A stretch of DNA of 64,000 nucleotides from an uncultured Lachnospiraceae bacterium (GTDB lineage: Bacteria; Bacillota; Clostridia; Lachnospirales; Lachnospiraceae), in the NCBI GenBank assembly GCA_949878435.1, contig CATLAK010000003.1, forward strand, positions 62,001-126,000, given 5' to 3'. This document shows, piece after piece, positions 2,807-31,232 of this stretch. The first letter of the stretch is position 1; every line of letters starts with the position of its first letter. Position numbers and translations under genes: made by a program. The notes under the pieces were generated by a model. That model saw only the letters and a program-made list of their open reading frames with translations, ran no database searches and had not been told where the DNA came from.

Positions 2807-3778
2807 GTGGCATTAAACAATTCCCAATATGAAACGATTATGCGTGAATACGAAGACAGGCAGACAAGGAACAGGCATCTTGTAAAACAGCGCACAAAGG
2901 AAGTATACGAAAAGGTAGAAGGATACCGCGCTCTTTCTGAATCTATTGCCGCCATTTCCGTATCACAGGGGAAAAAGCTCTTAGAAGGCGATGAATATGC
3001 GCTGGACGAACTGCGGGAGTCTATCCGCAATCTTTCCAGCATGAAGGAGCAGCTCCTTATAAGCGCCGGTTATCCCAACGATTACTTAGCGCCCGTCTAT
3101 GACTGCCCCGACTGCCATGACACCGGTTATATTGAAGGCGCCAAGTGCCATTGCTTTAAGCAGGCAGTCATCGACCTTCTCTATGAACAGTCCGGTATCC
3201 GCAGCATGTTGGAAAAGGAGAATTTCAGCACCCTGTCCTACGATTATTATCAGGGCGAAGATCTCGAGCGTTTTAAAAGCGCCGTCCAGACAGGCAGGAC
3301 TTTCATAAAAAATTTTGATTCAGACTATCAAAATTTATTCTTTTATGGTACAGTGGGTACGGGCAAATCTTTTCTATCCGGCTGTATTGCCAGAGAACTG
3401 ATAGAAAGCGGACATTCTGTCATCTATTTCAGTTCCGCCGGACTCTTTGAAACTTTATCCAGAAATATGTTCGACTATAAAAATAAAGACGATATTCTCA
3501 GCTTTCATGAAGATCTTCATAGCTGCGATTTGCTCATCATTGACGATCTGGGAACCGAATACACCAGCAATGTTACTGCTTCCGTATTTTTTTCCCTGTT
3601 AAATCAGCGTCATCTGGGAAAAAAGTCCACCATCATCTCAACAAACCTCTCTTTAGAGGATTTGCGGAACCGATACTCGGACCGGATCTTTTCCCGGATA
3701 ACCAATCAATATACAATTTGTAAGTTTACCGGACCAGACATCCGGATGTACAAAAAAAGACTTCAAAACAGAAAGTGA
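2807..3778 (+). CDS. DnaI/DnaC-like helicase-loader ATPase
   Basis: A 323-residue AAA+ ATPase of the DnaC/DnaI family that loads the replicative helicase. A coiled N-terminal region leads to a zinc-binding cluster with cysteines at 100, 103, 114 and 116, as in DnaI. The AAA+ module has Walker A GTVGTGKS at 181-188 and Walker B LLIIDDLG at 242-249. The start is a GTG at 2807 with AAGGAG at 2793-2798; the ATG at 2802 is out of frame. It is co-directional with and closely spaced to the DnaD gene and prs, so the three probably form one operon. Confidence 0.9.
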   Translation: MALNNSQYETIMREYEDRQTRNRHLVKQRTKEVYEKVEGYRALSESIAAISVSQGKKLLEGDEYALDELRESIRNLSSMKEQLLISAGYPNDYLAPVYDCPDCHDTGYIEGAKCHCFKQAVIDLLYEQSGIRSMLEKENFSTLSYDYYQGEDLERFKSAVQTGRTFIKNFDSDYQNLFFYGTVGTGKSFLSGCIARELIESGHSVIYFSSAGLFETLSRNMFDYKNKDDILSFHEDLHSCDLLIIDDLGTEYTSNVTASVFFSLLNQRHLGKKSTIISTNLSLEDLRNRYSDRIFSRITNQYTICKFTGPDIRMYKKRLQNRK

Positions 3779-3787
3779 GGTACCTTC

Positions 3788-4978
3788 ATGGCGCATCGTG
3801 AAGAAACAAGAAACTTGGAAACAATCCCCGTAGGATCCCTTGGAATCATCCCCTTAGAAGGATGCAGAGCCCTTGGCGAAAAAGTAGATGATTACCTGGT
3901 AAAATGGCGTACCGTCCGCGAAAGCGAACACAAGGACAGCCTTGCTTTTGCCGGCTACCAAAGAGACTCCTACATTTTGAAGGCAAAAGTACCGCGTTTC
4001 GGCTCCGGCGAGGCAAAGGGCATGATTTTGGAATCTGTCCGCGGAACCGACTTATATCTTTTGGTGGATGTCGCCAATTACAGCCTGACTTACTCCTTAT
4101 GCGGGCACGAAAACCACATGTCTCCGGACGACCACTATCAGGATCTGAAAAGAATCATCGCTGCCGTAGGCGGAAAAGCAAGACGGATTACCGTCATCAT
4201 GCCCTTCCTCTATGAGAGCAGACAACATAAGAGAACAGCAAGAGAATCTCTCGACTGCGCACTTGCACTTCAGGAAATGGTTCACATGGGCGTTGACAAT
4301 ATCATTACCTTTGATGCCCACGACCCCAGAGTACAGAATGCGATTCCTCTACACGGCTTTGAAACCGTGCGCCCTACCTACCAGTTCATAAAAGGTCTTT
4401 TAAAGCATGTTCCGAATCTTGCCATTGATTCCAACCACATGATGGTGATCAGCCCGGACGAAGGCGGCATGAGCCGCGCCATCTACATGGCAAATGTGCT
4501 TGGGCTGGACATGGGCATGTTCTATAAGAGAAGAGATTATACCCGCATCGTGAACGGGCGCAACCCTATTGTAGCCCATGAATTTTTAGGCTCCTCTGTA
4601 GAAGGAAAGGATATGGTCATCATTGATGATATGATTTCTTCCGGCGAAAGCGTACTGGAAGTCGCCACTGCCTTAAAGGAACGCAAGGCACGCAAAATCT
4701 TTATCTGCGCTACTTTCGGTCTGTTTACCAATGGTCTTGAGCGGTTTGACAAAGCTTATGAAAATGGAATGATTGACAAGGTCCTGACCACCAACCTGAT
4801 CTACCAGACGCCGGAACTATTAGAGCGCGAATGGTACATAGACTGCGATATGAGTAAGTATATCGCCTATTTGATCGATACTTTAAATCACGACGCTTCT
4901 ATCAGCGATCTTCTGGATCCCAATAACCGTATCCAGGATGCAGTTGCGCGATATAAGGCAGGGGAAGCGATCGACTAA
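3788..4978 (+). CDS. prs: ribose-phosphate pyrophosphokinase (long form)
   Basis: PRPP synthetase transfers pyrophosphate from ATP to ribose 5-phosphate, feeding purine, pyrimidine, histidine and NAD synthesis. The PRPP-binding loop VIIDDMISSGES lies at 277-288, FDAHDP at 175-180 and SPDEGGMSRA at about 222-231. At 396 residues it is longer than the roughly 315-residue bacterial classic; the extra length is mostly N-terminal, a form I associate with clostridial genomes. It starts 9 bp after the helicase-loader stop with GTGAGG as ribosome site, and a strong hairpin follows its stop. Confidence 0.93.
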   Translation: MAHREETRNLETIPVGSLGIIPLEGCRALGEKVDDYLVKWRTVRESEHKDSLAFAGYQRDSYILKAKVPRFGSGEAKGMILESVRGTDLYLLVDVANYSLTYSLCGHENHMSPDDHYQDLKRIIAAVGGKARRITVIMPFLYESRQHKRTARESLDCALALQEMVHMGVDNIITFDAHDPRVQNAIPLHGFETVRPTYQFIKGLLKHVPNLAIDSNHMMVISPDEGGMSRAIYMANVLGLDMGMFYKRRDYTRIVNGRNPIVAHEFLGSSVEGKDMVIIDDMISSGESVLEVATALKERKARKIFICATFGLFTNGLERFDKAYENGMIDKVLTTNLIYQTPELLEREWYIDCDMSKYIAYLIDTLNHDASISDLLDPNNRIQDAVARYKAGEAID

Positions 4979-19269: not shown

Positions 19270-19337
19270 ATGTTTCTCCTTCCTAGCAGCAAACGTTTTT
19301 ATGTAGAGCGACAGATAAATTAAAAGCCATGTGGCAA

Positions 19338-19841
19338 TTATTTTAGAGCAGAAAGAATAAGACGGCTGCGCGCTTCCATGAGTGCAAATCCTAAAAGATT
19401 TTGACCATTCCATTTATTCATGTCAAATCTGTTCTCATCTGTCATGCCTAATCCGATTCCCCATACTTTGTCCATAACAGCGCATTCCGCCAGAATGCAA
19501 TCACCTGTTTCAACCAAAAGCTTTTTGATTTCTTCGTTTTGTCTAAATTTCTCAATAAGTCCATTATAAACGATTGCTTGACGCATTCCACTCCAAATCA
19601 GATCATCATATCCTGAAACCATTCTTCCAAGCGCTTTGATTTTACCGACATTATTAGTTGCCATAATCTCATCCGCAATCTTATTGTCTTTAAATAGGCA
19701 TGCCTTTCTAAACATCATATATTGTTCCATGGATGAAAATGCCACACCATCTAACTGGAAATCTGACAAATACCAGTTGCTTAAATAACCGTTTCTTTCA
19801 TCTGGATTATGGAAACATATTATTTTCGACAATCTGTTCAC
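19338..19841 (-). CDS. NADAR-domain ADP-ribose glycosidase
   Basis: A 167-residue single-domain NADAR (YbiA/DUF1768) protein, visible from NGYLSNWYLSDFQLDG, FSSMEQYMMFRKA, DLIWSGMRQAIVYNG and VWGIGLGM. NADAR enzymes cleave N-glycosidic bonds of ADP-ribose-type molecules; some remove ADP-ribose from guanine in nucleic acid, and a NADAR domain serves as the antitoxin part of DarTG1. Here the gene is last in an operon begun by a DUF3990 ADP-ribosyltransferase-like protein, overlapping the middle gene by 35 bp. An antidote role is therefore likely, but it is inferred. Confidence 0.85.
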   Translation of the reverse strand: MNRLSKIICFHNPDERNGYLSNWYLSDFQLDGVAFSSMEQYMMFRKACLFKDNKIADEIMATNNVGKIKALGRMVSGYDDLIWSGMRQAIVYNGLIEKFRQNEEIKKLLVETGDCILAECAVMDKVWGIGLGMTDENRFDMNKWNGQNLLGFALMEARSRLILSALK

Positions 19842-20247
19842 CTACTTTCTGAACTGCCAAATCTAAATCCAGGTCATGAAGACCTCTATATGCCGCACAA
19901 ATAAAGTCAATCGGTATAAGCTCTGCTATTCTTTTGCTGCTCATATTATAATACCATTGAAAATATGCATAGAACTGTCCTATCCAGTTCACTGTAAATC
20001 CTCCGATTGCATTTCCACAAATCGGCTTAAAATTATCTGTCTTACAAAAATATGTCCATAAATCCTTCGCATCAAGCGTACATACATATGCCTGACCCTG
20101 ATCAATAAATTTCCTGGTTCGGCTTATCATATAATTTTCTATAAAATGTCTGACATCTATCCCTGGTTCATATACTGTTATTTCCTCGAATAATTTCCCC
20201 TGCGTCTCAACTACTTCTTTCAAATATAACTCATTATACGCATGCAT
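19807..20247 (-). CDS. helical partner protein of DUF3990 operon
   Basis: A 146-residue, mostly helical protein with no named domain that I can assign. It resembles small proteins that recur next to DUF3990 genes in clostridia; shared-looking features are an N-terminal MHAYNELYLKEVVETQGKLF, a central GFTVNWIGQFYAYFQWYY and a C-terminal leucine-rich helix. It sits 23 bp after the DUF3990 gene and overlaps the NADAR gene. It could be a cognate neutraliser, an adaptor or a target-recognition subunit. No catalytic motif is visible. Confidence 0.7.
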   Translation of the reverse strand: MHAYNELYLKEVVETQGKLFEEITVYEPGIDVRHFIENYMISRTRKFIDQGQAYVCTLDAKDLWTYFCKTDNFKPICGNAIGGFTVNWIGQFYAYFQWYYNMSSKRIAELIPIDFICAAYRGLHDLDLDLAVQKVGEQIVENNMFP

Positions 20248-20270
20248 ATTTATATTTTCCCTTTCAATTA

Positions 20271-20921
20271 TTAAATCAATGTACTGAATACGCGATTTAC
20301 TTTATTTCTGTCTGAATTAATCAGCTTTTTCATATTATCACGGGCTGTTATATCTCTTTCATTGTACTTCTGATTAAACTCGGAATAATTCACAGGAATC
20401 AAAGCACTCTCCATTTCCTTTAATCCTGAATATGCCTTTTCCGTCTTAATGCAGTATTGCACACCCAAGCCGCCAAGGGAAAGCAGTTCCTCCAAAATCT
20501 CTATATCCACTTCATCTCGGACAAATGCTTTTGTAATATAAAAATACGATGCGTTTGCTCTCCATCCTTTAATTACATCATATGTTGACGTATCTATGCC
20601 ATACTTGCAGATAAATTTTTCAGACAAAATCCTATATCTCTTTGAATCGTCTGCCTGTCTGTGCTTCATAAGTTCCGCCATCCAAGACAAAATATTTTTA
20701 TCAGCAAAATCGAGCATCGATAAGCCGGTCATATCAAGTTTATACTTATGTACCCAGCCGCCTATACTCCCCGGATTACTTACAGCCCATTCTTTTGCCA
20801 GTTCAATATGCTCCGTCAGATAGAATCCTTTTCCATAATCATGCCGGTCTTCCCCCAACCCATATGTTGGAACAAATTTTTTATTGGGGCTTCCATGATA
20901 TAGGGTAATCTTGCTATCCAT
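20271..20921 (-). CDS. DUF3990 ADP-ribosyltransferase-like protein
   Basis: A 216-residue protein of the DUF3990 family, which has an ADP-ribosyltransferase-like fold. The N-terminal LYHGSPNK is the NAD-binding H-G block, followed about 25 residues later by YGKGFYLTEHIELAKEWA, the central block seen in ART toxins. A C-terminal acidic segment (EVDIEILEELLSLGG) may hold the late glutamate. It heads a three-gene operon with a small helical protein and a NADAR glycosidase. A toxin that modifies a nucleic acid or protein with ADP-ribose is the leading idea. GGGAG lies 8 bp upstream of the ATG. Confidence 0.8.
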   Translation of the reverse strand: MDSKITLYHGSPNKKFVPTYGLGEDRHDYGKGFYLTEHIELAKEWAVSNPGSIGGWVHKYKLDMTGLSMLDFADKNILSWMAELMKHRQADDSKRYRILSEKFICKYGIDTSTYDVIKGWRANASYFYITKAFVRDEVDIEILEELLSLGGLGVQYCIKTEKAYSGLKEMESALIPVNYSEFNQKYNERDITARDNMKKLINSDRNKVNRVFSTLI

Positions 20922-20956
20922 CTTTCATCTCCCTCGATTCATCATCTGTTCTTTTA

Positions 20957-20985
20957 ATTATACTCCCACCATAATGCATTTTCTA
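20957..20985 (-). promoter_or_regulatory. possible promoter of the DUF3990-NADAR operon
   Basis: On the minus strand a perfect TATAAT (20957-20962) is preceded by TAGAAA (20980-20985) at 17-bp spacing. The -35 match is poor, so strength is uncertain, but the position 36 bp before the DUF3990 ATG fits. Confidence 0.4.
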
Positions 20986-21000
20986 TTAATATTTTTTCAA

Positions 21001-21069
21001 GCGCAGCTTATGTTCCGCGTACGAAGCTGCGCATCCAGCTTTCGTTCATAGGACATACTTTCCTATGAA
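21001..21069. repeat. two small hairpins
   Basis: GCGCAGCTT (21001-21009) pairs with AAGCTGCGC (21024-21032), and TTCATAGGA (21045-21053) pairs with TCCTATGAA (21061-21069). Both stems are perfect. They lie between the hydratase terminator and the DUF3990 operon promoter. Neither has a T-run. Their role is unknown. Confidence 0.4.
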
Positions 21070-21073
21070 CCAA

Positions 21074-23415: not shown

Positions 23416-23465
23416 TATCCTTTCCTCCTCGTTTGGTTTCTTATGTCATGGTGGATGCTTTTTTG

Positions 23466-23518
23466 CTTTCGAGGTTTATTATATGATAAAATAGGGGGAT
23501 TTGCAAACAGTCACTTTC
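23466..23518. repeat. 53-bp direct repeat, copy A, with promoter
   Basis: This copy matches 24483-24535 at 45 of 53 positions. On the minus strand it carries -35 TTGCAA (23501-23506), a 17-bp spacer and -10 TATAAT (23478-23483), which drives the hydratase gene. Its upstream edge supplies the last two codons and the stop of the DUF3791 gene. Together the two copies bracket the DUF3990/DUF3791 module. Confidence 0.8.
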
Positions 23519-23723
23519 CACATGCTTGCTTTTCCAACATTAATTCATCAATATCGTCGAAAGCGTTCTGCAATCTTTCCACATGATATATTTCATACAT
23601 ATCATAAATAAAATCCGTAAGTTCCAATTTATCCCATTCATGCAAAACTTGATTTGCCGTACTTCCTTTTTTTTCCGCATATCGCTCTATAAGATAAATA
23701 AAAAATTGCGTTTCTTTCGACAT
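23511..23723 (-). CDS. DUF3791 small protein
   Basis: A 70-residue helical protein that I recognise as DUF3791 from ETQFFIYLIERYAEKKGS, ELTDFIYDMYEIYHVE and the C-terminal DDIDELM. DUF3791 genes commonly accompany DUF3990 genes and are plausible antitoxins or adaptors; no activity is established to my knowledge. The ATG at 23723 has AAGGGAG 8 bp upstream and its coding region overlaps none beyond a few bases of the preceding gene's leader. The stop codon lies inside direct repeat A, so the C-terminus was shaped by the repeat. Confidence 0.78.
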   Translation of the reverse strand: MSKETQFFIYLIERYAEKKGSTANQVLHEWDKLELTDFIYDMYEIYHVERLQNAFDDIDELMLEKQACGK

Positions 23724-23728
23724 TCCTA

Positions 23729-23971
23729 TCACTCCCTTATATATTGCGAATTCCTTGGATCTCCGGTGACTTTTTCACTTTCCCACATATCAAAGATAAT
23801 ATGGGGACTCATTTTATAAATATCCAATTCAACATCAAGCAACATTTGGTATGTTTCGGATTCAATAAAATTTCGCACTGCCTCTCTCTCTTTTATACCA
23901 TACTTATCAATAATCAATTGGACAACCTGACGGTCATAGAAATCTAGTTTTCTTGCATCTACCTGACTCAT
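23729..23971 (-). CDS. small helical protein between DUF3990 and DUF3791
   Basis: An 80-residue protein with no domain I can name; it may be a distant DUF3791 relative. Two acidic amphipathic helices are visible (RQVVQLIIDKYGIKEREAV and MLLDVELDIYKMSPHIIF). The ATGA overlap with the end of the DUF3990 gene indicates translational coupling, as expected for toxin-antitoxin partners. GGAG is 10 bp before the ATG. Confidence 0.7.
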   Translation of the reverse strand: MSQVDARKLDFYDRQVVQLIIDKYGIKEREAVRNFIESETYQMLLDVELDIYKMSPHIIFDMWESEKVTGDPRNSQYIRE

Positions 23972-24447
23972 ATTATATCGTCTCCTTCAAAGCTTAAGTA
24001 TGATAATGCCTTCTTTGTTAAAAAGGCATACTGATCTGTTAAGTTTTGTGGCAGCAATTTTTCTACTGCTTGATTTCTTGTATATTTTCCATCCATATAA
24101 TCATCAATTACAGGAAGAGTAGCATCATTCGCAACCGGACCAATCACCAGATCATATACCTCTTTAACAGGTATTTCTTTTCTATTTGCCACCACAAAAT
24201 CAAGCCATTCGGCATTTGCAGTTTTAAATAGCAGAATCTTTAGTTCTTTCATCCGTTCTTCTTTCAATTCGTAAACATTTAGTACTGGATTGCCTTTTCG
24301 TCTCCTTCTGGTTACTGTTCTAGCCCATCTTATAGCCTGCTCTCTGCTAGAAGTTAAATAGAATCCAGCTCCAAAGTCTAATGCGCGAAGTTTTTCACGA
24401 ATCTCCGGCTTTTCAACTACAATATTGCTTCCATGATATAAAAGCAT
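23968..24447 (-). CDS. DUF3990 ADP-ribosyltransferase-like protein, second module
   Basis: A 159-residue DUF3990 protein. LLYHGSN opens the protein and LDFGAGFYLTSSREQAIRWA follows, the same two ART-like blocks as in the larger homologue at 20271-20921. A later segment, KEVYDLVIGPVANDATLP, is also typical of the family. The ATG at 24447 has AGAGGTG upstream and removes 16 residues that only extend through the promoter repeat from a TTG codon. It is first in a three-gene operon driven by the promoter in direct repeat B. Toxin function is inferred from fold and context. Confidence 0.8.
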   Translation of the reverse strand: MLLYHGSNIVVEKPEIREKLRALDFGAGFYLTSSREQAIRWARTVTRRRRKGNPVLNVYELKEERMKELKILLFKTANAEWLDFVVANRKEIPVKEVYDLVIGPVANDATLPVIDDYMDGKYTRNQAVEKLLPQNLTDQYAFLTKKALSYLSFEGDDII

Positions 24448-24482
24448 ATATTTCACCTCTCTTTTGGCAAAAGCTTCAATTT

Positions 24483-24535
24483 CTTTCGAGGACAATTATA
24501 TGATAAAATGGGGCAATTTGCAAATGGTCACTTTC
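24483..24535. repeat. 53-bp direct repeat, copy B, with promoter
   Basis: On the minus strand this copy has -35 TTGCAA (24518-24523), a 17-bp spacer and -10 TATAAT (24495-24500), 48 bp before the DUF3990 start. It is 85 percent identical to copy A at 23466-23518, with identity extending past both promoter boxes (CTTTCGAGG and TCACTTTC at the two ends). Confidence 0.8.
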
Positions 24536-24608: not shown

Positions 24609-25535
24609 TTATAATCCTGATAACGTCCTCATCACCAAATCCACATCCTTATTCTCAAGCTCCTGAATAATGTGCAGATATGTCTTCTGCGTTGTTGTCA
24701 TGCTTGCGTGTCCCAATCTGCGGGCAACGCTTGCAATTGACACTCCCGCAAAAAGCAGCAGGGAGGCATGGGTATGGCGCAGCCCGTGAATTGAGATTAC
24801 AGAAATGCCGCACGCCCTGCAATGCCTTGTCAGCACATCATTTACCGTGGAATTATAGATTTTATCCTGTCCTACAAATATAGGCTTATCCTCCGGCATA
24901 CCTTTTATCAGTTCCGAAAATTTGACCACAATCTGCCAATCAATCTGTATCTTTCTCACAGACGATTTGTTTTTTGTGGGCAGGAAACCGCCCTCGCCTT
25001 TGTAGTCCCATGTCTTACTGATGGATAAGGTCTGCCTTGCAAAATCAAAATCCCCCGGCGTTACTGCAAGCGCCTCCGAAAACCTCATGCCAGTCTTGGC
25101 AACAAGCAGGATAAACCAATCCCAGTTCGCTTCTTCTTTAATATCAAGATGTGCTATCAGTGTATGAAGTTCAAACTGGTTTAAGTATTTTATCTTTTTG
25201 GTTCTCGGCGTTTTTCCTTTAATAATCGCCTTTCTTGTCGGATCACGCCCAATCATTCCCTCGTCAACGGCATCAATGATTGCCCCCTTAAGCTGGTGGT
25301 GGAAATCAAGCGTCGTCTGCCTTTCATGCTCTTTCGCATAATCATTTAAGAGCTGCTGGTAGGCGGTTCTCGATAGTTCGCACAGTTTCAATTCCGGTGC
25401 AAGTTTTTCAACCCACTTCTGCGTCATAAGGTACTTTGACATCGTTGCTTCCCTTATAGCCCCTTTCTTGTACACGTCTACCCATTGCCTGTAATACTCG
25501 TAAAAAGGTGTTTCACTGTTCATATCTTTTAGCAT
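24609..25535 (-). CDS. tyrosine recombinase / integrase
   Basis: A 308-residue phage-type site-specific recombinase. The N-terminal SAM-like core-binding domain covers about 10-105 and the catalytic domain follows. The catalytic residues are visible: Arg151 (TGMRFSEAL), His250 and Arg253 (HGLRHTHAS), His276 (LGHAS) and Tyr286 (TYLHI). The ATG at 25535 has GGAGG 6 bp upstream. It lies just downstream of hsdR on the same strand. Such recombinases accompany type I restriction loci, where they can shuffle hsdS, or mark an integrated element; no hsdS is present here. Confidence 0.9.
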   Translation of the reverse strand: MLKDMNSETPFYEYYRQWVDVYKKGAIREATMSKYLMTQKWVEKLAPELKLCELSRTAYQQLLNDYAKEHERQTTLDFHHQLKGAIIDAVDEGMIGRDPTRKAIIKGKTPRTKKIKYLNQFELHTLIAHLDIKEEANWDWFILLVAKTGMRFSEALAVTPGDFDFARQTLSISKTWDYKGEGGFLPTKNKSSVRKIQIDWQIVVKFSELIKGMPEDKPIFVGQDKIYNSTVNDVLTRHCRACGISVISIHGLRHTHASLLLFAGVSIASVARRLGHASMTTTQKTYLHIIQELENKDVDLVMRTLSGL

Positions 25536-25605
25536 AAGCTGCCTCCATTTCTTGAAAACACTTACGCCGATACAAACAACCGGAAAGGACAAAACCATGT
25601 CATGT

Positions 25606-28569
25606 TCAATGACCAGTAAGCGGCTTGATTTCCTTATCCAGCGTTTTTCTAAGTTCCGCCATCATCTGTGCATAAAATTTGAACTTGGGGAGAGCGTTCT
25701 TCCTCGACTCCTTATAGCTGGTATAATCAATCGTTGCCTTTATCCTGCTCTCGTTTGGTATTTCCCCGTTCCTGTAATGGCTTGCCGCATACATGACATC
25801 ATCCTTCGATGCATACCATATCAGACAGAAATCTGTGATTACCCGGTCTATGCAGTCCTGTTTCATACTCTCCACAATATTTAAGATGGATTTTCCTTTA
25901 TATTTTTCCGCATCCATTTCAATTTCATCAATCAGCCCGGACATGATATCCGCAATCTTCGGATTGTCCTTGCGGAGCTCCTCCACATACTGCCTTATCT
26001 CTTCAATTTTCCGCTGCCGTTCTTCGGGGGTGATATCCTCTTCCCCATCATCCGGTGTGACTATATTCTGGATTAGATTAATGATATACTCATAATCTAT
26101 TTTTGTACTGCTGTATGCCATCAGCTCATAATCAGAATCTATCTGCACAGATTCAGGAATATCCTCTCCTTTGTCCGGCTTATTGTCCTGTATTTCTTTC
26201 AGCACATTAAAATAGTGCCCCGCATAATCATCGTATTCCTCCTGTGTGATGCCATATCCTTCAAGCATCCTGTCATCATAATTTGTAAATGATTTCATCT
26301 GGGCAAATAGCCTGTCAAAATTCTGGAAGATTTTAACAAATACTTCTTTTTCTTTCACTGACATTCTGGGAACCTCCGATGGAGTTTCCGCCGAAACACG
26401 CAGCGCTGAGAGCGCTTTCTCAAACGCCGCCTCTATTTCGTCCCATTCCGCCAGCAGTGCTTCCTTCGTCCCTCCTGCGGAGTACAGTTTGACTGCCTCG
26501 TCCACACATTTTTTGAATAATATAGGAGCCTGAAAGGTCACAATCTGTCCATATGCTTTATTTTTGTCATAAATACGGTTCGTCCTCGAAAAAGCCTGTA
26601 TCAAATCATGGGGTCCCATCGGCTGCCTGTCAATAAAAATAGTTGACATGCATGGAGCATCAAATCCTGTAAGAAGCCGATCTACAACAATCACTATATC
26701 AAGCTGCTCACTCCTGCTCTGGAATTTGGTTTCTTTTCTTGCAAGCCTCTTATTCAAGTTCCCATTGTAACCCTGAATCTGAGAAAGTTCATATTTTGTC
26801 CCGAACATCTCATTGTAATCATCAAGGGAAGCTTGCATTTTCTGCTGATTCACCTGAGAGCCTTCCTCATTCTCGGAAACGGAATAGGTTATAGCAAATT
26901 TAGGGAAATCAGGGAGCACCCGCTTTATTTTCTCGTCTATTACGAGAGAAGTCTCCCCCCTCTTTACCTTTGCCAGCAGTTCGTAATATTTCTGTGCAAG
27001 CTGGATGGAGCTTGTTGTAAGAAGCCCTTCGTATGTCATTCCCCTGCCGTTCTGAAACCCTAATTTATGATAAGATTTGTTCAGGATTACATCCAGCACT
27101 TTCAGCATGTGCGCCTCATTGTCATATGCATTCTTGTCTGTCTCGTCGGCAATATCCTTAGGACCGTTGTGTTCCACTTGAAATCCAAGGACGGCATTGT
27201 CATGAATCGCATTCTGTATCGTATACTTATGCAGCCTTTCTCCATACAGTTCCTCTGTTGTCCTCGGAAGATCCCCCATCTGCGGATATGGGTTCTCTGC
27301 AAATCTGGGTGTCCCGGTGAAACCAAACCATAAGGAATTTCCAAAAAATCGTTCCAGTTCCCTTTTCATTCCCGGCGTAACCGCCCTGTGGCACTCATCC
27401 ACAACAAATGCAATTTTAAGATTCCGTATTTTCCGATATTCCGGCATGTCTTCCTGAAGCCTCTTCATAATCAGCCTTTGCAGTTTTTGGATGGTTGTCA
27501 CAATCACCTGCCTGTCGCCTGATTTCAGTTTTTTCTTCAAGTCGTTTACATTGTCCGTCTCGTCAACATCCACCAAATCGTTATTTGCATAAGCCTGAAA
27601 CGCCATTGTGGTCTGAGTGTCCAAATCTTTACGGTCAATCAGAAATACAGCCTTGTCAAGGGCGGGTATGTCCATCAATAGATTCCTTGTCGCCTTGTAT
27701 GAAGTCAGCGTTTTCCCTGAACCTGTTGTATGCCACACATAGCCTGACCTGCCTGTTTTGGACGCTTCACGGATTGCCTCAATCGCATGGATCTGATACG
27801 GTCGCAGCAGAATCAGCTTTTTTGCATCTTCATCCAGCACGGTATATCTAGCAACCATCTCGTGTGCCGCCGGGATGCTGAGGACGCTTTTTGCAAAATC
27901 TATATAATCCGTTATTGGATTATTGTCCTTATCAAGCCAGCCACTGATAAACTTGGGGTTCAGCTCTGTGTCGCCTGCTGCGGAAAAGTATTTCGTATTT
28001 ACACTGTTGCTGATAACAAACATCTGCACTGCCGAAAAAATACCCGTAAATTTCCCTTCCCCGATATATTTCTTAATCTGCCAGAATCCGTCCATATAGG
28101 AGTGCTGCTTATTTTTCAATTCAATATGAATCATGGGGAGACCGTTAATTAAAAGCGTCACATCAAACCGCCTATCCCTTGCAGAAGCCTTGCTGTCCTC
28201 ATCCGTCTTTAATGCGCTGTACTGGTTGATGACCTCATAGACGCTGCTTCCGCCTGCAATATGCTCATGGTTCATAACAACGAGGTGGAGGCGCTCCGTA
28301 TCCCTCTGCACATGCACCTGGACTTTTCCGTTCTCTCCTACCAGCCACTCGCCTGCCTTGTAAAATGATGAAAACTGAAGCTGGTTCTTTACCTGTTCAA
28401 AGTCACTTTCCGTCAGAGATTCCCCATTCAGCCTCTCTTTATTGTTCTGCTCAAGAATATATTTAAAATTTGCCCATAAATCATTTTCCGTTTTCAAATC
28501 TTCCCTGTATACCCACTGTGAATCTCCATAAATATCTGACACAGATTGCAATGGAGCTTTCCCTCTCAA
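25606..28569 (-). CDS. hsdR: type I restriction enzyme HsdR, orphan, altered N-terminus
   Basis: HsdR is the motor and nuclease subunit of type I restriction complexes. The nuclease site is FDVTLLINGLPMIHIELKNK (about 135-154, with D136, E150 and K152). Walker A TTGSGKT is at about 281-287, DECHRA marks motif II, and QAFSRTNR a late helicase motif. The helicase core is intact. The 5-prime end is abnormal: the frame begins only at TTG-type codons, native similarity starts at about residue 11 (SDIYGDSQWVYREDL), and upstream DNA is a remnant of an unrelated plus-strand gene. hsdM and hsdS are absent, so it probably cannot restrict DNA and may not be expressed. Confidence 0.85.
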   Translation of the reverse strand: MRGKAPLQSVSDIYGDSQWVYREDLKTENDLWANFKYILEQNNKERLNGESLTESDFEQVKNQLQFSSFYKAGEWLVGENGKVQVHVQRDTERLHLVVMNHEHIAGGSSVYEVINQYSALKTDEDSKASARDRRFDVTLLINGLPMIHIELKNKQHSYMDGFWQIKKYIGEGKFTGIFSAVQMFVISNSVNTKYFSAAGDTELNPKFISGWLDKDNNPITDYIDFAKSVLSIPAAHEMVARYTVLDEDAKKLILLRPYQIHAIEAIREASKTGRSGYVWHTTGSGKTLTSYKATRNLLMDIPALDKAVFLIDRKDLDTQTTMAFQAYANNDLVDVDETDNVNDLKKKLKSGDRQVIVTTIQKLQRLIMKRLQEDMPEYRKIRNLKIAFVVDECHRAVTPGMKRELERFFGNSLWFGFTGTPRFAENPYPQMGDLPRTTEELYGERLHKYTIQNAIHDNAVLGFQVEHNGPKDIADETDKNAYDNEAHMLKVLDVILNKSYHKLGFQNGRGMTYEGLLTTSSIQLAQKYYELLAKVKRGETSLVIDEKIKRVLPDFPKFAITYSVSENEEGSQVNQQKMQASLDDYNEMFGTKYELSQIQGYNGNLNKRLARKETKFQSRSEQLDIVIVVDRLLTGFDAPCMSTIFIDRQPMGPHDLIQAFSRTNRIYDKNKAYGQIVTFQAPILFKKCVDEAVKLYSAGGTKEALLAEWDEIEAAFEKALSALRVSAETPSEVPRMSVKEKEVFVKIFQNFDRLFAQMKSFTNYDDRMLEGYGITQEEYDDYAGHYFNVLKEIQDNKPDKGEDIPESVQIDSDYELMAYSSTKIDYEYIINLIQNIVTPDDGEEDITPEERQRKIEEIRQYVEELRKDNPKIADIMSGLIDEIEMDAEKYKGKSILNIVESMKQDCIDRVITDFCLIWYASKDDVMYAASHYRNGEIPNESRIKATIDYTSYKESRKNALPKFKFYAQMMAELRKTLDKEIKPLTGH

Positions 28570-28968
28570 AAGCGACCTGTACGAGAGCTATCAATGACCT
28601 TACTGCTTCTGGTCTAATCACGCAAAAGTTCGGAATGCACACACAAATGGATTACTCCGGCATACGGGAAACCGGAATTTTTGAAAAAGGGATATGAACG
28701 TCTGAAATCACCTATGGAACGAATCCTTTATGTGAAAACACCGGTTCAGATTGAAAGACAGGTCATAAGCGGAATGCGGGCGCTGGCACATCAAACTATA
28801 ATCGGTGTAAATGAACAAAATGGTGCCGTTGCTGTTTCTAAAAAGACTGCTGCAAAAATTCCTGTAGATGCTATTTGTACCGAACAGTATTTTGGAGATT
28901 TCGGCGGATTTGTCTTTGAGGTATGGTCCTATGACCCTGCTATATTGGCGAAAAATGCCTGTGTATAG
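28538..28968 (+). pseudogene. remnant of winged-helix (MarR-like) regulator
   Basis: The plus strand encodes a winged-helix fragment (LTQIAMELSLSKATCTRAIN, DLTASGLI) in one frame. In the +1 frame from about 28681 it continues with YERLKSPMERILYVKTPVQ and EVWSYDPAILAKNACV, which looks like the C-terminal part of the same regulator family. The frame change falls in the run GAAAAAGGG near 28685. The 5-prime part is lost at the junction with hsdR and the 3-prime part ends at a TAG. I see no way to make a full-length product. Confidence 0.65.
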
Positions 28969-28993
28969 GAGAAAATCAAATGGAGGTATTCCA

Positions 28994-29401
28994 ATGAGCG
29001 ACTACAAACCGCCAATTCTTGACGGCAAGCGCGTTCTTGGAAACCCCAACGAGATTAGAGAGGTACAGAATGCATATGAAGCCTACGAACTAATGATGCA
29101 GTTAAATCCTGCATCCGTAGACGATCTCCTCAAAGCACACAAGCTGATGATGAGCGGTCTTGTGCCAGAAAATGGAAAGTTCCGCTCTGGCGGCGTAGGC
29201 ATCTTTGACGGAGAGGTGCTGATCCACATGGCTCCTCCAGCAGAATTTGTGCCGGAGCATATTCACAACCTGTTTGCATGGTATCAACAGTCAGAACTTC
29301 ACCCGCTGATTAAAAGTGCCGTCTTCCATTACGAATTTGAATTCATTCATCCCTTCGCAGAGGGGAATGTAACATTGAGACACCAGCAGAAAGCGGCGTA
29401 A
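28994..29401 (+). pseudogene. 5-prime part of an interrupted fic gene
   Basis: The product of this 135-codon frame begins like a Fic-family AMP-transferase (ILDGKRVLGNPNEIREVQNA, HKLMMSGLVPENGKFRSG) and runs to FEFIHPFAEGN at about 29340-29370. This is the start of the catalytic HPFxxGNGR motif. It then turns into unrelated residues and stops at 29401. Fic enzymes transfer AMP from ATP to protein hydroxyls; without the GNGR and following arginine the fragment cannot work. The matching 3-prime part lies 1.9 kb away. The ATG has GGAGG at 28982-28986. Confidence 0.85.
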
Positions 29402-29446
29402 CAGCGGCAAACTACTTTGTATATAAATTTGAATAGCGTATATGCC

Positions 29447-29485
29447 AAAGGATATTTCATCTTTTATTTGATGAATATCCTTTTT
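29447..29485 (+). terminator. intrinsic terminator ahead of AbiE pair
   Basis: AAAGGATATTTCATC (29447-29461) pairs with GATGAATATCC (29470-29480) with one bulge, followed by TTTTT. It separates the broken fic gene from the AbiE promoter and may mark the left part of the inserted segment. Confidence 0.75.
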
Positions 29486-29500
29486 GAAATTTAAGGTAAA

Positions 29501-29528
29501 TTGACATTTCGACAAAGAATGATATAAT
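29501..29528 (+). promoter_or_regulatory. promoter of the abiEi-abiEii pair
   Basis: A perfect TTGACA (29501-29506) and perfect TATAAT (29523-29528) are separated by 16 bp, 55 bp before the antitoxin ATG. Confidence 0.8.
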
Positions 29529-29583
29529 ATATGTGAATATTGATGACGAAATTCGTATATAATATATCAAAGAGGGCGAGGGT

Positions 29584-30246
29584 ATGCGAAAAACTTATAC
29601 AACTTTTGTGTGTGAACAATTAGCAGTGGTGCCAACAGGAATACCAATTTATACAGGGCAGATTGCAAAGAAGATTGCAGCGGTTTATGATTTGGAAGAA
29701 AAAGAAGCGGCGGCAGCGGCGGCAGTTGCGGTAAAGCGTGCGCTGGATGGGAAACTTTTACCGGAACTTCGGTGCTTCCAAAAAGGAATTTACTATCGTA
29801 CGGCAGTGACTCCTTTTGGTGAAACGGGAATTAACAAGGAAAAGCTGATCGCGGATAAATACTTGTTGCCGGATATTGGGTATGAAACTGGTCTGACAAC
29901 CCTTCATCGTATGGGACTGACTTCACAGATGCCACGGGAGCGTGTATTGGCGACCAATGCGGCGAAAGATTGTATGAGAACAGATAGAAAACTTGGTGTT
30001 GTGATTCGACCGCCCAAAGTTCCTGTCACAGCAGAAAATAAAGAATATCTGCAAATACTTGACGCATTGGATTTGTTAGAAAAAGCTCCGGTAGATGAAG
30101 AACACCCTTATGAGATTATTGCGGACTATATTCAGAAGAAAGGGATGAAATATAAAGTTCTGCTGGCATTTGCTGATTGTTATTATAATCATAATACGGT
30201 ATTGCGCCTTGCACATACCGCAAGTATGGGAGGAACTATGATATGA
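29584..30246 (+). CDS. AbiEi-like / DUF6088 antitoxin
   Basis: A 220-residue protein of the AbiEi/DUF6088 type that precedes an AbiEii nucleotidyltransferase. The N-terminal part (TGIPIYTGQIAKKIAAVY, then an alanine-rich helix) looks like a winged-helix DNA-binding region; the rest resembles the antitoxin body. In type IV AbiE systems this protein represses its own promoter and counters the toxin. The stop overlaps the toxin start (ATGA). G-rich codon use on the plus strand differs from neighbouring core plus-strand genes, supporting acquisition. GAGGGCGAGG lies ahead of the ATG. Confidence 0.8.
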   Translation: MRKTYTTFVCEQLAVVPTGIPIYTGQIAKKIAAVYDLEEKEAAAAAAVAVKRALDGKLLPELRCFQKGIYYRTAVTPFGETGINKEKLIADKYLLPDIGYETGLTTLHRMGLTSQMPRERVLATNAAKDCMRTDRKLGVVIRPPKVPVTAENKEYLQILDALDLLEKAPVDEEHPYEIIADYIQKKGMKYKVLLAFADCYYNHNTVLRLAHTASMGGTMI

Positions 30247-31232
30247 AATTACATGAAGATAAAGATGCGTTTGGTCTTTTGCTTGAAAACATACATGAAA
30301 AGACAGGATATCGAACAGATGTACTGGAAAAGGATTACTATGTTCTGCTAATCTTGCAGGAATTATCTAATTTTCAGGCAGACGGACTTCAGGCTTATTT
30401 CAAAGGCGGAACAGCCCTTTATAAAGCCCTGAAAACGACCAACCGTTTTTCCGAGGATATTGACCTTTCCGTTGATACCAGAGGATGTAGCAGGACACAG
30501 AACGATAAACGTCTGGAACGTGCAGCCAAGAAATATGTTTCCCTTCCGAGGGATGCGGCACAAGGGAAAACAAATCGTTCTGAGGTGATTGCGGTTTATA
30601 CATATGATCCTGTTACTGCTTTTGATGCAGACGATGCACTGCAACGTTTTGGCAAACTAAAAGTGGAAGCAACTTCTTTTACGATTAGTGAGCCGGTGGA
30701 GAGTTTAGAAATATCTGCGATGCTTTACAACCTGGCGACAGAGGAACAAAAGAAGATTCTTGAAACAGTGTATGATGTAAAGCCATTTTTTATCCAGACC
30801 ATCACTTTGGAACGCATTTTTGTTGACAAACTTTTCGCTGCGGAAGCGTATGTTCGTCATTCTTCCATAAATCAACGAGCGTTTGAGGCGGCAAAGCATA
30901 TCTATGATTTAGCAGTTATTGCACAGCATCCGAAAGTATCAGCGTTGTTATCAGATTCAGATAAATTAAAGCGTCTTTTGGAGATTCGTGTGGAGGAAGA
31001 AAAAGGACGCCTTGACGGAATACCTGGCGTTGTTCCGACAGGATTTATATTCTTTACACAGGCTGGAGATAATAGCGATGTCCGCAAAGCGTATGAAACC
31101 ATGCAGAACCAATATGTCCTCAGAGAACAAGATCGAATTGAGTTTGAGACAGCGGTAAAAGCCCTGATGAATATTCAGGAGAGCTTATTGAAAAATCCTG
31201 CATGGGTAGACTTTCATAATACAACAATTTAG
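30243..31232 (+). CDS. AbiEii/AbiGii-family nucleotidyltransferase toxin
   Basis: A 329-residue nucleotidyltransferase toxin. The catalytic fold is clear: FKGGTALYKAL (53-63) and then FSEDIDLSV with aspartates 72 and 74 forming the metal site. A later KLFA block (ERIFVDKLFAAEAY) is characteristic. AbiEii proteins cause abortive infection; related enzymes add nucleotides to tRNA 3-prime ends. Translation is coupled to the antitoxin by a 4-bp overlap. The pair sits between the two halves of a fic gene. Confidence 0.88.
   Translation: MKLHEDKDAFGLLLENIHEKTGYRTDVLEKDYYVLLILQELSNFQADGLQAYFKGGTALYKALKTTNRFSEDIDLSVDTRGCSRTQNDKRLERAAKKYVSLPRDAAQGKTNRSEVIAVYTYDPVTAFDADDALQRFGKLKVEATSFTISEPVESLEISAMLYNLATEEQKKILETVYDVKPFFIQTITLERIFVDKLFAAEAYVRHSSINQRAFEAAKHIYDLAVIAQHPKVSALLSDSDKLKRLLEIRVEEEKGRLDGIPGVVPTGFIFFTQAGDNSDVRKAYETMQNQYVLREQDRIEFETAVKALMNIQESLLKNPAWVDFHNTTI

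Follow-up and report, generated by a model that had tools for sequence, protein, structure and literature searches.

Within the 64,000-nucleotide stretch of DNA analysed here (the window), three genes lie in a row on the minus strand in the order A-B-C: an open reading frame of 216 aa encoding a DUF3990 protein (A, 20271..20921), one of 146 aa encoding a small helical protein (B, 19807..20247) and one of 167 aa encoding a NADAR (C, 19338..19841). The open reading frames bear out the co-directional trio described in a first-pass annotation of this DNA, with a gap of 23 bp between A and B and an overlap of 35 nt between B and C if C starts at the GTG at 19841. An alternative TTG start at 19832, which gives an overlap of 26 nt, agrees about equally well with the N-termini of relatives.

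Each of the three proteins matches its counterpart among the PDC-M42 profiles of PADLOC-DB (version 2.0.0), in which PDC-M42 is a phage defence candidate: PDC-M42A matches A at 5.9e-115 (residues 3-216), PDC-M42B matches B at 6.7e-61 (residues 1-138) and PDC-M42C matches C at 1.1e-79 (residues 6-161). The three-gene unit is therefore already catalogued, and we found no feature that separates the trio from PDC-M42, whose profiles come without description or mechanism. A paper on Bacillus cereus defence refers to the PDC systems as candidates from Payne et al. 2021 that are still unpublished (PMC11811056), and a search by name found no paper on PDC-M42 in the open-access literature (most subscription papers and preprints lie outside this search). 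The first-pass annotation had seen a distinct system in the pairing of a DUF3990 protein with a NADAR, a claim overtaken by this catalogue entry and by the published pairing of a non-DarT ADP-ribosyltransferase (ART) with a NADAR in YarT-YbiA (PMC11125620). Its proposed check, a search for conserved adjacency, came out positive: across 27 loci of the M42 clade, window included, an intact A-B-C stands in place at nine (the window, L039, L112, L113, L118, L133, L238, L239 and L240), and the pairing of DUF3990 with NADAR falls within one clade. Six further loci were scanned and left uncounted, three with C alone (L123-L125) and three from outside the clade (L234-L236). Because of the profile matches and these nine loci, we regard the arrangement as going beyond chance.

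Protein A and the DUF3990 family

The DUF3990 and NADAR identities given in the first-pass annotation hold. A matches Pfam DUF3990 (PF13151) at 3.2e-35 and carries both the LYHGSPNK and the YGKGFYLTEH motif; at E<=1, Pfam adds a sub-threshold match to ART-PolyVal, and DarT is absent. The putative triad H9, Y34 and Q155 is kept in 74, 75 and 75 of 77 aligned A proteins, respectively. This predicted H-Y-Q arrangement is inside the H-Y-[E/D/Q] ART pattern described for YarT (PMC11125620) and, as H-Y-[E,D,Q], for CmdT (PMC11618068), and a family survey places DUF3990 in the Pfam ART clan (PMC7955679). DUF3990 has been reported as the variable C-terminal domain of the type VI Rhs effector Rhs5, with a predicted immunity gene downstream, in a study whose experiments concerned Rhs1 and Rhs2, not the DUF3990 protein (PMC4524185); RhsA of E. 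bugandensis has a C-terminal DUF3990 whose function is called unknown (PMC10763514). No paper with an experimental test of a DUF3990 domain was found in the open-access literature, again with most subscription papers and preprints outside the search.

In a sample of 392 genomes from the order, 160 have DUF3990 matches. The genome of the window has eight DUF3990 places with nine matches, two of which are pieces of one broken gene; a DUF3791 gene adjoins six of these places and B adjoins the other two. Some of the genes are broken, in two pieces on contig C7 and by stops on contig C21. An HTH_3 domain stands at the N terminus of nine of ten long A proteins tested, the exception being L072; in the window neither A nor B carries an HTH.

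Protein C, a YbiA-type NADAR

C matches Pfam NADAR (PF08719) at 1.4e-47 and TIGR02464, the riboflavin-intermediate N-glycosidase model, at 1.7e-43 (148.5 bits against a cut-off of 73.7). Against the anti-phage NADAR model NF053876 it scores 41 bits, far under the cut-off of 240. Aligning C to crystal structures 8bau and 2b3w (YbiA) placed E39, K46 and E119 at catalytic positions, as the catalytic glutamate, the lysine and the YbiA-type glutamate, respectively (positions counted by hand on the alignment; roles from PMC11125620 and PMC11543638). These three residues are kept in 19 of 19 aligned M42C-like NADARs. As judged from this alignment, C is a YbiA-type NADAR with its catalytic residues intact. 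Proteins of this kind reverse the ADP-ribosylation of guanine on DNA and RNA (PMC11543638, PMC11833690), and NADAR-domain proteins are mentioned among systems discussed as validated (PMC13092281, 2026). Elsewhere, we observed NADARs fused to a macro domain (L142, 3174-4394) and to an ADP-ribosylglycohydrolase (L145, 1943-3322).

Protein B is the constant partner of the DUF3990 protein

B has no match in Pfam. AlphaFold2 predicts an all-helical fold (mean pLDDT 86.7, pTM 0.84, from a 7-sequence alignment), in keeping with the 146-residue helical protein of the first-pass annotation. Comparison with the PDB gave no match and no solved relative, and for that reason the idea that B binds A is a conjecture drawn from the architecture. 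PDC-M42B matches are present in 62 of 392 genomes of the order sample, 7 of 388 of the phylum sample and 21 of 37 of the genus sample, each count including this genome. We counted 76 B genes from loci, with the window excluded and L020 and L031 dropped as superseded; matches in G354, G334, G289 and G304 are outside this set. A lies directly upstream on the same strand in 64 of the 76 (median gap -1), two B genes lie no more than about 300 nt from the end of a contig and ten are without trace of A. C lies directly downstream in seven. A B-family gene at L023 (1480-2514) had no adjoining DUF3990 gene that we could find; a Fic gene comes next, after about 19 bases.

As the first loci had been found via B, we repeated the neighbour count from the A side. 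A sample of 160 genomes from the taxonomic family yielded 34 PDC-M42A matches of at least 100 bits, and 32 of them adjoin B; the exceptions are a gene at a contig end (L236) and one without B (L234), where A makes up the C-terminal portion of a larger protein. Among the 27 clade loci, most of which were found via B and are thus biased towards loci with it, B is full-length in all 15 that have a full-length A; the full-length clade A genes recovered by the A-side search number only seven, and B is present with all seven. C is absent or a stub at five of those 15 loci (L115, L120, L041, L132 and L241), so C is not essential, and at another (L117) a full C is displaced by about 2.5 kb. B, not the NADAR, is the constant partner of the DUF3990 ART. 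The first-pass annotation had cast the small protein as a second layer of control; because of these counts the roles look reversed, with B constant and the NADAR the optional layer.

The rarity of A without B would also be expected if B served as a CmdTAC-like adaptor or sensor, needed for the folding of A and released by a phage trigger while C limits background damage, and the CmdTAC ART does depend on a partner for folding (PMC11618068). We consider this account unlikely, as none of A, B and C gave a SecB-like chaperone match in Pfam at E<=1.

Gene loss often spares the NADAR

A is damaged or absent at 12 of the 27 clade loci. At seven of these C is full-length (L114, L116, L237, L119, L231, L192 and L233); at three others C is nine profile positions short (L191), split (L230) or interrupted where the contig stops (L232). 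Of the remaining two loci, one has B by itself (L040) and the other keeps a deletion remnant in which the start of B is joined to the end of C (L121). B is also truncated in L191, L192 and L233. All eight C proteins that survive a damaged or absent A in full-length or, in L191, near-complete form keep the E-K-E residues. Loci beside uvrB form a series, from A-B-C (L118) through an A without its H-Y end followed by B-C (L237) and B-C (L119) to C alone (L125). Assembly errors may account for some of the broken A genes, but not for the replaced ends and deletions. We also observed that the reading frame of the uvrB gene adjoining the module runs for no more than about 87 codons in L119 (near 4468) and L237 (near 1328), as if interrupted at the same point.

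Loss of A with retention of C is what a harmful A and a harmless C would lead one to expect, and the gene-loss patterns, read from the sequences, fit a toxin with antidotes. Frequent survival of C after loss of A would suit a plain DarTG1-like arrangement, with A the toxin, C the true antitoxin and B a minor accessory or regulator; a NADAR is the antitoxin in both DarT1-NADAR (PMC11543638) and YarT-YbiA (PMC11125620). The constancy of B next to full-length A, set against the dispensable C, argues against this arrangement, as do A-B pairs without an adjoining C in the wider family, and we judge it the least probable of the alternatives considered here.

B resembles a fusion of two small partner proteins

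A second DUF3990 module lies 2.6 kb from A-B-C in the same chromosome. It encodes, on the minus strand, a DUF3990 protein (A2, 23968..24495; PF13151 9.6e-52, PDC-M13A 1.2e-67), then an 80-aa partner (D1, 23729..23971; PDC-M13B 1e-33) and a DUF3791 partner (D2, 23511..23732; PF12668 2.1e-15, PDC-M13C 2.1e-33), and is thus PDC-M13-like. Using hhalign, we compared the halves of the 44-member B family with the families of D1 and D2, which had been collected in iterated searches that also included B proteins and were then limited to proteins no longer than 110 aa. The N half of B matched the 80-aa family at E 1.5e-7 with a probability of 93.9, where 60 column shuffles gave 1.8e-3 at best, and the C half matched DUF3791 (E 8.9e-7, probability 91.4; best of 60 shuffles 0.01), and the crossed pairings were near background (E 0.0026 and 0.2). 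Pfam DUF3791 itself matches five of the 44 B proteins, at best at 5.3e-7. When the comparison was restricted to the 13 B proteins of the close clade, the links to the 80-aa and DUF3791 families were not significant (E 0.0017 and 0.0036), so the kinship rests on the wider family.

Because the halves match a D1-type protein and then DUF3791, in the gene order of the neighbouring module, B looks as if the two small partners had been joined into one protein, and this chromosome would hold both versions of the partner, fused and split, 2.6 kb apart. DUF3791 genes adjoin other DUF3990 genes as well, and at L126 DUF3791 is fused to DUF3990, that is, the partner is joined to the ART. The same locus (3042-4582) has the DUF3791-DUF3990 fusion, an 82-aa protein and a NADAR of another type in a row.

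HTH_3 is found at the C terminus of all ten long B proteins in the 44-member set. A DNA-binding domain is common, though not universal, in type II antitoxins. B of the window lacks such a domain and shares with those antitoxins its place beside a putative toxin gene. This antitoxin-like architecture, with HTH_3 in the long forms and kinship to DUF3791, supports B as most likely an antitoxin.

NADAR-linked DUF3990 proteins of the tree fall in one clade

We built a tree from 77 A proteins, leaving out those under 140 aa, those without an adjoining B or DUF3791 gene, and L030 and L031; the tree carries a long-branch warning. All six A genes with a linked C, the displaced C of L117 counted among them, fall in one clade of nine (100/99), whose other three members are A-B pairs without C. 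Its neighbours are L072 and then a long-B form (98/93; 91/80). The forks that place the clade among the long-B forms have support of 89/87 and 89/41, which makes this nesting less certain than the clade itself. A genes of the DUF3791 type group apart from these (99/93). On the simplest reading of this tree, a single gain of the NADAR, at about the time when B lost its HTH, was followed by its loss in some lines.

NADARs near C stand alone elsewhere in the order, which makes standalone NADARs a plausible source, and C was probably recruited once from among them; the tree of C proteins mixes operonic and lone NADARs with support too low to place the source. This mixing, the lone relatives and the score of C above the TIGR02464 cut-off could also be expected of an ordinary hitchhiking NADAR, active on riboflavin intermediates or in general ADP-ribose clean-up, which would leave A-B as the functional unit. 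A hitchhiker would not readily account for the fixed place of C directly after B in one NADAR-bearing clade of A, or for the repeated decay to B-C or C in the same place, as beside uvrB, and we think it improbable.

Empty sites and a defence setting

The closest relative, G399, carries the neighbouring hydratase most similar to that of the window among the genomes of the genus (99%). In a blastn comparison of its locus (L193) with the window, flanks of 94-95% identity enclose 93 unrelated bases in place of 19286-21073, the block holding A-B-C. G399 is also without 23519-24479, the second DUF3990 module, which in the window is flanked by a 56-nt direct repeat (23463-23518 and 24480-24535, 84% identical) present in a single copy in G399. 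Because of the flanking repeat and the single copy, the second module resembles a cassette inserted upstream of the hydratase gene, and the clean empty sites show each module to be a discrete block that was gained or lost. Neither module contains a mobility gene.

Next to both modules lies a defence island (24609-31232) with integrase, type I HsdR, Fic and AbiEii-type genes. At L155, L156 and L133, A-B-C sits inside a type I restriction locus, adjoining hsdS, and on a Treponema plasmid A-B is near genes annotated as ToxN-type and HEPN. Among 73 neighbour proteins of eight loci, at most five match one type I specificity profile and at most three a type I methyltransferase (counted within the best 25 of 142 families), and the type I neighbours identified by Pfam come from two of the eight loci. 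For comparison, 95 control proteins taken from six of these genomes gave no match to either type I profile, and 14 other PADLOC families were matched among them. The type I link points to a defence setting that rests on few loci. A-B-C is probably an anti-phage module.

A proposed mechanism with two layers of antidote

Together our results favour, with a probability of roughly 55%, a module in which A is a toxin, B its cognate neutraliser and C, the NADAR, an added eraser. A would be an ADP-ribosyltransferase toxin that puts ADP-ribose on a component of the cell, and B a dedicated antitoxin that binds and silences it. Should some A escape B, the hydrolase C would strip ADP-ribose from a guanine base of DNA or RNA. 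In related two-gene forms, an HTH is often found on B (C-terminal) or on A (N-terminal), and neither is present in the window. The toxin/antidote idea of the first-pass annotation survives in the real pairing, the kept catalytic residues of C and the fitting gene-loss pattern; its novelty and the part given to the small protein do not.

Guanine is our best guess for the target because NADARs have been reported to reverse its ADP-ribosylation in DNA and RNA. Alternatively, A might modify a protein instead of a base, in which case the NADAR would not reverse the mark and the pairing would have another reason; the available portions of papers naming DUF3990 (including PMC7955679, PMC4524185 and PMC10763514) give no acceptor. 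Erasing by NADARs, where described, concerns guanine in DNA and RNA (PMC11543638, PMC11833690), and a protein target therefore seems to us doubtful.

More broadly, and with somewhat less than even confidence, we suggest that DUF3990 ARTs and DUF3791-type partners make up a large, little-studied superfamily of ADP-ribosylation toxin-antitoxin systems, in which one clade may have swapped the DNA-binding regulator of the partner for an eraser of base ADP-ribose, giving two layers, a neutraliser and damage repair. The fused partner, its split DUF3791-type relatives and the acquired NADAR offer a testable model of how an antidote that neutralises and one that erases come to be combined.

Comparison with known systems

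PDC-M13, represented by the second module of the window, has the same ART family, and its two small proteins find their likeness, in matching order, in the N and C halves of the B family. In PDC-M13, however, the partners are two genes rather than one, and the window's copy has no NADAR following it. Rhs effectors also carry DUF3990 in the toxin position (PMC4524185, PMC10763514), but are secreted polymorphic toxins.

DarT1-NADAR (DarTG1) likewise places an ART toxin and a NADAR antitoxin in one operon (PMC11543638). It differs in its DarT toxin, where the present module has DUF3990 and a third protein, and DarT1-linked NADARs of the BC4488 type carry a catalytic aspartate where C carries the glutamate E119 (PMC11125620, PMC11543638). 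We rejected an assignment of the trio to DarTG1, A not being a DarT by Pfam and C lacking the DarT1-type aspartate. DarG of DarTG2 both binds its toxin and removes the toxin's mark (PMC11543638); with neutralisation by B and erasure by C, the double job of DarG would therefore be split over two proteins. CmdTAC, too, has three genes including an H-Y-[E,D,Q] ART toxin, but its third gene encodes a SecB-like chaperone, in contrast to the NADAR here (PMC11618068).

In YarT-YbiA of myxobacteria, a non-DarT ART is paired with a YbiA-type NADAR antitoxin that has the catalytic glutamate (PMC11125620). YarT, however, belongs to the HYD1 ART clade, YbiA lies upstream of the ART, and the available text of that paper describes no third protein. 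For A, Pfam at E<=1 gives no family other than DUF3990 and ART-PolyVal. The three-gene unit (PDC-M42) and the pairing of a non-DarT ART with a NADAR (YarT-YbiA) are known already. New within the open-access literature, which excludes most subscription papers and preprints, are the kinship of B with the split partners, the constancy of B, the clade of A genes linked to a NADAR, the pattern of gene loss and the empty sites. As far as the sequences tell, the logic of A-B-C is close to that of YarT-YbiA and differs from it by ART family name, gene order and the extra partner.
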